NCBI GenBank assembly: GCA_944338165.1
Contig: CALVLN010000001.1
Span: 124,001-188,000, forward strand
Length of the DNA stretch: 64,000 nucleotides
Direction: 5' to 3'
DNA from: an uncultured Clostridia bacterium
GTDB lineage: Bacteria; Bacillota; Clostridia; Christensenellales; Borkfalkiaceae
Positions 3,865 to 55,108 of the stretch are shown in pieces. Below the pieces are notes generated by a model that searched no databases, was not told the origin of the DNA, and saw only the letters and a list, made by a program, of their open reading frames with translations. A program made the translations under genes and the position numbers. Each line of letters begins with the position of its first letter. Positions within the stretch are counted from its first letter, which is position 1.

Positions 3865-4115
3865 CCGCTTTTGATACGGCTTTGCCCTTCATGCCGCATC
3901 ACGTCACCTCTTGGTCCCTAACCGCGTCGCGGCAAGGCTCCACCTCTCGGGACGGCAACGCCGCCCTCGCCTTTGCTCCTGCCGCTCCTTTTCCCATAAA
4001 AAATACTTCGTCTTTTTATGGGAACACTTTATTTTAGCGCGCTTGGCACAGGAACGCTTGAGGCCGCGCCCTGGAATAAAGAACGGACATGCCCTAACAT
4101 GGCATGTCCGTTCTT
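3865..4115. repeat. Gene-free region with decayed copy of the tRNA-Pro-associated element
   Basis: No gene is seen. 3906-3923 is an 18-nt exact copy of the tRNA-Pro anticodon arm (4352-4369), fused to an 11-nt copy of the inverted acceptor end (3900-3910). 3961-3988 resembles the conserved body of the intact element (GGAG-CGGCAGGAGCAAAGGCGAGGG on the minus strand). Hairpins at 3993-4022 (CCCATAAAAA/TTTTTATGGG) and 4078-4116 look like terminators. The stretch reads as an older, degraded copy of the neighbouring element. Confidence 0.6.
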
Positions 4116-4116
4116 T
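4078..4116 (-). terminator. Intrinsic terminator behind the tRNA-Pro 3'-end copy
   Basis: AAAGAACGGACATGCC pairs with GGCATGTCCGTTCTTT, followed on the minus strand by a T-rich tract. It directly follows the CCA of the copied tRNA end, just as another terminator follows the true tRNA. Confidence 0.85.
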
Positions 4117-4270
4117 GGTTGAGGTGACGTGACTTGCGCCTTTGGCGGCGCGCCCCGGTGGACAGCCCGCCGGGCTGTCCAGGCTACGGAAGAACTGCCT
4201 GCCTATAAAATACCTTTCCGCCCTTCGCCCGCTTGCTCCCGCAATCGCCTCCACCCTCAAGTCACGTCAC
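4116..4270 (-). repeat. tRNA-Pro-associated structured element carrying copied tRNA 3' ends
   Basis: Read on the minus strand the 155-bp unit begins with a 13-nt sequence complementary to tRNA-Pro nucleotides 56-68 (plus 4258-4270), continues with GGGTGGAGGCGATTGCGGGAGCAA, an approximately 40-nt variable part, then a 9-bp hairpin (GGACAGCCC/GGGCTGTCC) and CGCCGCCAAAGGCG, and ends with a direct copy of tRNA-Pro nucleotides 56-76 including CCA (plus 4116-4136). The two ends can pair over 13 bp, leaving an acceptor-like overhang. The same body with tRNA-Ser ends is at 54818-54969. No protein is encoded. Confidence 0.85.
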
Positions 4271-4283
4271 AATTCCGCATATC

Positions 4284-4322
4284 AAAAAACTCCCGCAGAG
4301 GAAAATACCTCTGCGGGAGTTT
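4284..4322 (-). terminator. Intrinsic terminator of tRNA-Pro
   Basis: Stem ACTCCCGCAGAGG / CCTCTGCGGGAGT with T-run on the minus strand, immediately after the encoded CCA of tRNA-Pro. Confidence 0.93.
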
Positions 4323-4399
4323 TGGTTGAGGTGACGTGACTTGAACACGCGACCTCTTGGTCCCTAACCAAGCGCGCTACCAAACTGCGCTACACCTCA
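4323..4399 (-). tRNA. tRNA-Pro (anticodon AGG)
   Basis: Cloverleaf: acceptor TGAGGTG/CACCTCA, D-stem GCGC/GCGC, anticodon stem CTTGG/CCAAG with loop TTAGGGA (anticodon AGG, G37 as usual for proline), T-arm GCGTG-TTCAAGT-CACGT, discriminator A and encoded CCA. It has its own promoter and terminator. Its last 21 nt are copied at 4116-4136. Confidence 0.96.
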
Positions 4400-54699: not shown

Positions 54700-54838
54700 T
54701 TGTCCCCCTTCCGTTCGGGCGCAAACCGTTTGCTCCCGCAAACGCCTCCACCCCCGAATCCCTCTCTTTATTCGCATTTTTCCAAAAAAAGAGCCGACAA
54801 CCGTCGGCTCTTTTTGTTGGCGGAGAGAGAGGGATTCG
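54700..54838 (-). repeat. tRNA-Ser-associated tandem repeat, distal copy
   Basis: 139 bp nearly identical to 54902-55041 (one substitution and one T indel). In minus orientation it begins with tRNA-Ser nucleotides 56-76 (plus 54818-54838), a terminator (54784-54815), a 13-nt inverted match to tRNA-Ser 56-68, and the conserved GGGTGGAGGCGTTTGCGGGAGCAA body start, then stops abruptly. Confidence 0.9.
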
Positions 54839-54969
54839 CGCCTTTGGCGGCGCGCCCCGGGAAACAGCCCGCCGGGCTGTTCCGTTTGCGTTCTTCCTTC
54901 CTTGTCCCCCTTCCGTTCAGGCGCAAACCGTTTGCTCCCGCAAACGCCTCCACCCCCGAATCCCTCTCT
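54818..54969 (-). repeat. tRNA-Ser-associated structured element (full unit)
   Basis: In minus orientation: inverted tRNA-Ser 56-68 (plus 54957-54969), GGGTGGAGGCGTTTGCGGGAGCAA, about 50 nt of variable sequence, a 7-bp hairpin (ACAGCCC/GGGCTGT), CGCGCCGCCAAAGGCG and a direct copy of tRNA-Ser 56-76. The body matches the tRNA-Pro element at 4116-4270 nearly base for base in its conserved segments while the ends match tRNA-Ser. Confidence 0.88.
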
Positions 54970-55041
54970 TTATTCGCATTTTTTCCAAAAAAAGAGCCGA
55001 CAACCGTCGGCTCTTTTTGTTGGCGGAGAGAGAGGGATTCG
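54902..55041 (-). repeat. tRNA-Ser-associated tandem repeat, proximal copy
   Basis: 140 bp whose plus-strand right end (55021-55041) is the real tRNA-Ser 3' end. It includes a terminator at 54986-55019. Together with 54700-54838 it forms a direct repeat with a 203-bp period, separated by a 63-bp conserved core (54839-54901). Confidence 0.9.
54986..55019 (-). terminator. Terminator of tRNA-Ser
   Basis: Minus strand AAAAAGAGCCGAC / GTCGGCTCTTTTTTT, directly behind the encoded CCA. An identical terminator follows the copied end at 54784-54815. Confidence 0.92.
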
Positions 55042-55108
55042 GACCCCCGGAAAGTTGCCCTTCAACGGTTTTCAAGACCGCCGCATTCGACCGCTCTGCC
55101 ATCTCTCC
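55021..55108 (-). tRNA. tRNA-Ser (anticodon TGA), with C at position 55
   Basis: Acceptor GGAGAGA/TCTCTCC, anticodon loop CTTGAAA (anticodon TGA), long variable arm as expected for serine, T-stem GGGGG/CCCTC, discriminator G and encoded CCA. The T-loop reads TCCGAAT, so the nearly universal U55 (pseudouridine) is C. All other features are normal. Confidence 0.93.

Follow-up and report, generated by a model that had tools for sequence, protein, structure and literature searches.

What is the element that stands behind the two tRNA genes of this window, and how does it come by ends that resemble each of them so closely? The window is the whole 64-kb stretch of DNA analysed here, out of a 1.45-Mb draft genome, and ARAGORN finds two tRNA genes in it, tRNA-Pro(AGG) and tRNA-Ser(TGA), both on the minus strand. 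Read along the tRNA strand, the order is tRNA gene, a hairpin or terminator designated T1, a spacer, a 5′ arm, a body, a 3′ arm with CCA and, often, a second terminator designated T2. At the Pro locus, all of which lies on the minus strand, the tRNA gene from which the ends are copied occupies 4323..4399 (ARAGORN; Rfam), T1 begins right at its CCA (4284..4322, from the sequence and the CCA-to-arm distances across copies), and a spacer (4271..4283), where other copies have a weak ACGAA-like motif, leads to the 5′ arm (4257..4270), which arm comparison identifies as an inverted copy of tRNA-Pro nucleotides 55-68. The body (4137..4256), which scores 138 bits with our covariance model, contains the GNRA hairpin P2, P3, the triloop hairpin P4 and P5 (CGCC-GCCAAA-GGCG), as supported by covariation; it is followed by the 3′ arm (4116..4136), a direct copy of tRNA-Pro 56-76 including CCA, and by the T2 hairpin (4077..4115). 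An earlier note on this DNA had quoted a direct copy at 4116-4136 and an inverted copy at 4258-4270, and both are present in the sequence. Of the region it gave, 4116-4343, approximately 4116-4270 is the element proper; the region also extends over T1 and into the tRNA.

The Ser locus, likewise on the minus strand throughout, contains tRNA-Ser(TGA) (55021..55108, by ARAGORN and sequence), in which position 55 is C and not T, T1 (54985..55020), and a first unit with a 5′ arm (54956..54969) that is the inverted copy of tRNA-Ser 55-68 and carries G opposite C55, a body (54839..54955; 149 bits with the covariance model) and a 3′ arm (54818..54838) that is the direct copy of 56-76. The copies quoted earlier for this unit, direct at 54818-54838 and inverted at 54957-54969, are there, as are the body motifs said to be shared with the Pro unit. 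A second, truncated unit at about 54700-54767 had been missed: a repeated T1 that belongs to it (54783..54817), its 5′ arm (54755..54767) and a body that stops in the P3 loop (54700..54754) are recognizable from the sequence and the covariance model. In the same genome, further units stand behind tRNA-Gly(CCC) and tRNA-Leu(TAG), and a probable remnant stands behind tRNA-Arg(CCT).

How general is this arrangement? A degenerate pattern matched 49 of 201 genomes of the family, some of them by chance. A covariance model, which the earlier note had suggested as a check, was built from 32 complete units (151 positions, 42 pairs); by this model, 71 of 103 genomes of the genus carry the element, in up to 10 copies per genome. 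Among 396 genomes sampled from the order, 26 are positive; they fall into seven genera, six of which belong to one family, the seventh being a weak case in another family, and in a class-wide genome sample the model found no further carriers outside the family. Those carriers that have names are uncultured gut-metagenome Clostridia, Candidatus Gallimonas and Candidatus Coproplasma among them, and these names point to Borkfalkiaceae as the family. The host genes are Pro, Ser, Leu, Gly, Arg, Thr, Val and Lys tRNAs as well as tmRNA, and tandem units are frequent. Of 193 matches, 105 follow a tRNA or tmRNA gene of the same strand at a distance of up to 110 nt, and 24 do so at 110-330 nt. The expectation that every match would lie 3′ of a tRNA is thus borne out for 129 of them and not for the rest; many of those without an adjoining tRNA lie at contig edges or are cut off by an integrated element. 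tRNA genes in one other genus and one other family of the order are also followed by a divergent relative whose body is shorter (AATATGGAG..CGGGTAGGTCGCACAGGCGA; L186, L187, L188).

T1 is 36-40 nt long, starts right after the CCA and is usually terminator-like, its U-tract being weak in many copies, and the distance from CCA to the 5′ arm is mostly 46-56 nt. T2 belongs to the plan of the window loci and several others, and dual terminators are seen at the Pro locus of the window and elsewhere. The 5′ arm is a 12-14-nt inverted copy of tRNA 55-68, and the body that follows is a folded stretch of approximately 115 nt. The arm boundaries are sharp. In the 96 units that lie directly behind a tRNA or tmRNA, identity of the direct arm to the host gene is 0.94-1.00 at positions 56-76 and 0.00 at position 55, while identity of the inverted arm is 0.93-1.00 at positions 55-67, 0.57 at 68, 0.02 at 69 and 0.05 at 54. 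The claim that the breakpoint always lies between 55 and 56 therefore stands for the direct copy and fails for the inverted one, which includes position 55. The 21-nt 3′ arm (56-76) matches its tRNA exactly in 65 of 95 units. Over 12 nt, the inverted arm differs from the adjacent tRNA by a mean of 0.33 mismatches, compared with 4.02 when arms are shuffled among loci, and the lowest mean reached in 5000 shuffles was 3.52, which excludes a chance match of the arms. These statistics, together with the occurrence of the element in 71 genomes, rule out chance or an assembly artefact as the source of the pattern.

The ends are set by the tRNA and the body by the genome. Mean body identity is 0.78 between units of the same genome behind different tRNAs, 0.69 between units of different genomes behind the same tRNA, and 0.68 otherwise; for example, in genome G066 the Ser and Pro tRNAs are followed by identical bodies and unrelated T1 hairpins. 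A fixed body with tRNA-specific ends and a breakpoint in the T-loop, as proposed from the two window loci, is what approximately 160 copies display, and these copies also support spreading between tRNA genes. When one arm deviates from the tRNA, the opposite arm still fits it in nearly all cases and compensation is almost never seen, so the arms look as if they were copied once and were then free to drift. Furthermore, C55 of the window tRNA-Ser is answered by G in the inverted arm, at a position that the direct copy lacks, which points to the tRNA gene itself as the template, an argument that draws on a single tRNA type. In two units of G066 (L090, L092), the 5′ arm is that of tRNA-Leu and the 3′ arm and terminator are those of another tRNA; these chimaeras could come from recombination between bodies or from misassembly.

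What kind of molecule does the body encode? The structure drawn by hand comprises P1, formed by the arms, P1b, P2, P3, P4 and P5; P2 has a GNRA loop and U-A pairs alternating with tandem G.A, P4 has a triloop, and covariation suggests two putative tertiary pairs, 18/135 and 123/133. Standard pairs make up 96.1% of cells, compared with 33-40% in slid structures, a contrast that is inflated since the structure was drawn from the same sequences. Two-sided changes occupy 188 cells, compared with 47 in shuffles. Covariation of the arms is explained by copying and so is no evidence of selection for pairing; that of the body helices is independent of arm copying, and the body thus carries the compensatory base changes by which RNA genes are recognized. 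Both window units fold more stably than shuffled sequences (z of −3.0 and −2.3). In three orthologous pairs, the bodies differ between species by 1/119, 1/118 and 3/120 substitutions and the flanks by 2-40%, from which we infer that the body is under purifying selection. This low divergence could partly reflect gene conversion, against which we count the distinctive P2 variant carried by the Leu(cag) pair. The body stems contain 45 G.U and 22 A.C, a bias that is only two-fold and weaker than expected for an RNA, so folding as single-stranded DNA is still conceivable. Among Rfam families, none fits the element, and RtT has no match in the window at the gathering score.

We propose that the element is probably a small-RNA gene of Clostridia that resembles the tRNA-linked repeats (TLRs) of E. 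coli and is expressed as a read-through RNA, that uses the copied tRNA end as a 3′-processing signal and spreads by target capture. RNA polymerase would sometimes pass T1 and transcribe the element; a promoter was sought between T1 and the 5′ arm and none was found, and that candidate was rejected because the ACGAA motif of the spacer is weak and no −35 is conserved. The inverted arm would pair with the copied tRNA end in a stem of 12-13 bp that closes the transcript, and tRNA-maturing enzymes may generate the 3′ end of the latter by cleavage at the copied CCA, by analogy with what has been proposed for E. coli rrB. The body would move between the tRNA loci of one genome and take both of its ends from the target tRNA gene, after which the arms would drift and the body would be held by purifying selection. 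The earlier suggestion that the element is mobile gains indirect support from patchy occupancy, within-genome likeness of bodies and the chimaeras. A search for an empty and a filled locus at high identity yielded no such pair, so the insertion itself is something we infer.

How might an insertion take its ends from the target? As a speculation, synthesis could fold back across the closed body and copy 12-14 nt of flanking tRNA DNA, which would explain both the inverted arm and its fixed length. We tentatively extend this to the notion, to which we give somewhat less than even weight, of a mobile structured RNA or DNA element common to Clostridia and E. coli that captures 55-68 of its target in inverted and 56-76 in direct orientation at each insertion, for example by folding back. 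To our knowledge, such target-capturing spreading, if true, would be a mode that has not been described before. Insertion into a pre-existing inverted T-arm was rejected, since a scan of 179 tRNA genes for such an arm without a body gave no clear case. The one doubtful case lies in L168 at about 1990-2010, where ACGAAGGGACTTCAACCC resembles the reverse complement of tRNA 68 to 51 with no body and is either the body-less state or chance.

Alternatively, the units may be selfish, MITE-like, non-autonomous DNA that folds as single-stranded DNA, has no RNA function and owes its movement to a transposase or recombinase that acts on its hairpins, a possibility we take seriously while favouring the RNA gene. 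Patchy occupancy speaks for it: in related species, the orthologous tRNA-Ser(TGA) locus holds the element, other inverted/direct-copy elements, large-serine-recombinase-like genes, or none of these. So do the tandem and truncated units, the other MITE-like repeats nested in loops, the low G.U content and the triloop and palindromic form of P4. Against it stand bodies that are near-invariant between species, the GNRA loop and the apparent tertiary covariation at 18/135 and 123/133. A link to a Y1 transposase was rejected because the genome distribution of the latter does not track the element: it has a match in just 25 of 103 genomes and none in the element-rich genomes G129 and G190. Like MITEs and REP/BIME, the units are small, palindromic, multicopy and free of ORFs; unlike them, they take their ends from the target and are linked to tRNAs.

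Direct repeats that run from the T-loop to the 3′ end of a tRNA gene are the classical attL/attR pattern. The element could accordingly be a miniature integrative element, on which a tyrosine or serine recombinase acts in the T-loop or at the CCA, with the 56-76 repeat as att identity block. Its duplication resembles that of tRNA-targeted integrative elements, and large-serine-recombinase-like genes adjoin the same CCA at several loci. We nonetheless consider this reading unlikely: the unit, at approximately 200 bp, has no integrase and no room for an integrase ORF, and neither the inverted 55-68 copy, which sets it apart from such elements, nor the association of one body with many tRNA cores per genome is explained. 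The recombinase-like genes themselves, which were recognized by eye from their translations, end in ..GCACCA or similar right before T1 (L085, L095, L077, L150, L164, L076, L131, L132), and the tRNA CCA end thus seems to serve as an attachment site of integrative elements at several loci. A second repeat family (CGTCGCCGCAAGGCGCG...CTCCTTTTCCC(R)AAAAA...TTTTTYGGGA) follows exactly after the CCA of tRNA, tmRNA or copies (L201, L150, L168, L240, L264), and a copy related to it, which includes a stretch like the anticodon arm of tRNA-Pro, lies at about 3905-4025 of the window. Further classes (L318, L320, L323, downstream in L225, and L466 and L467 at E. coli lysQ/lysV) consist of a hairpin, an inverted copy of tRNA 76 to 51 or 61, a body and a direct copy from 59/60.

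A further reading, in which the arms were not copied at insertion and selection for pairing, between the two arms or between arm and tRNA, keeps them equal to the tRNA, is quite improbable. In 92 of 158 units the arms do pair without a mismatch over 12 nt; yet deviating arms go uncompensated, position 55 is matched in the inverted arm while it is partnerless in the direct arm, and no cross-locus match, in which an arm would fit a former host tRNA, was seen. Finally, a coding frame was rejected because body lengths differ by 1-3 nt in many copies, a T-box, suggested by the likeness of AGGGUGGA to a T-box motif, because other body types are without it and there is neither a specifier nor a leader gene, and a guide-RNA (TnpB/IscB-like) reading was considered and set aside.

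We return to the TLR-like small-RNA gene and to the systems it resembles. The TLRs of E. coli were described in 1978, and no general function or origin has been found for them since; the rrB T1-T2 cassette, which is present in many expression plasmids, is built around one. K-12 has 22 TLR genes at ten loci, mostly without function, which are identical with the gene upstream of them over 18-19 bp at the 3′ end (PMC8144298). RrA, RrB and RrF each sit between two terminators and are made when transcription reads through T1; they bind Hfq and CsrA, and a role as RNase E signal has been proposed for the 3′ repeat of rrB (PMC8144298). The clostridial element has the same succession: a gene and its T1, then a structured RNA whose 3′ end is copied, then T2 (PMC8144298); unlike it, RrA, RrB and RrF adjoin 5S rRNA, and no inverted 5S copy was seen there. 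In E. coli rrnB (L470), where the host gene is 5S rRNA, the rrB repeat has CAAATCCGC-CGGGA-GCGGATTTG, a hairpin like a T-loop half plus an inverted copy.

The clostridial element stands directly downstream of its host gene on the same strand and repeats the 3′ end of that gene at its own, as for a TLR. The rtT/RttR repeats (RF00391) behind tyrT/tyrV and the TLRs of argQ/Z/V and lysT/W/Y/Z are similarly placed and often tandem, and they share with it the direct copy of the tRNA 3′ end (at Tyr, Arg and Lys), a body common to different tRNAs, a fixed breakpoint in the T-loop and a short inverted arm adjoining the body. Of all known systems, the tyrT repeats, a parallel that had been called loose, come closest in architecture, this arm included: the tyrT/tyrV repeats (rttR) have the same plan, with the inverted arm GGGGAAGGAT as the reverse complement of 59-68. 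Likewise, units of the K-12 arg and lys operons share one body (AACGTTGC..GCAACGGCCCGAAGGGCGAG..), and their direct ends, which start from 58/59, are specific to the tRNA. The own tRNA is the best match of the inverted arm in all four Tyr units (0-1 mismatches in 10) and in four of five Lys units at 1 mismatch, the fifth fitting only at 3 in 10; Arg is weaker, with the own tRNA best in two of three (1 and 3 mismatches) and the third tied with Tyr at 2. We have seen no description of the inverted arm of tyrT/tyrV, and the word 'inverted' is absent from PMC8144298; the arm may be described elsewhere in the literature.

The two families also differ. Their bodies are unrelated, the breakpoint is at 58/59 in E. 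coli and at 55/56 in Clostridia, the E. coli inverted arm is approximately 10 nt, often imperfect and poor for Arg compared with 12-14 nt in Clostridia, and E. coli TLRs are usually without a T1 hairpin, except at lysQ/lysV and rrB. The RtT model (RF00391) finds no match up to E=5 at six clostridial loci. Since the plan and the two defining features that can be read from sequence fit a TLR and RtT is unmatched, we call the element TLR-like and not a sequence member of RtT. The TLR plan itself was already known; what is new, on our best reading of these sequences, is a sequence-unrelated TLR-like family in Clostridia. The cross-phylum parallel and the inverted arm raise its interest: a second unrelated family, with many copies and crisper ends, would mean that what was a curiosity is a tRNA-coupled RNA gene of a general kind, and yields testable rules for the breakpoint, the inverted arm and target capture. 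With the TLRs of E. coli built to the same plan, small RNA genes of this kind look widespread and seem to spread between tRNA genes.
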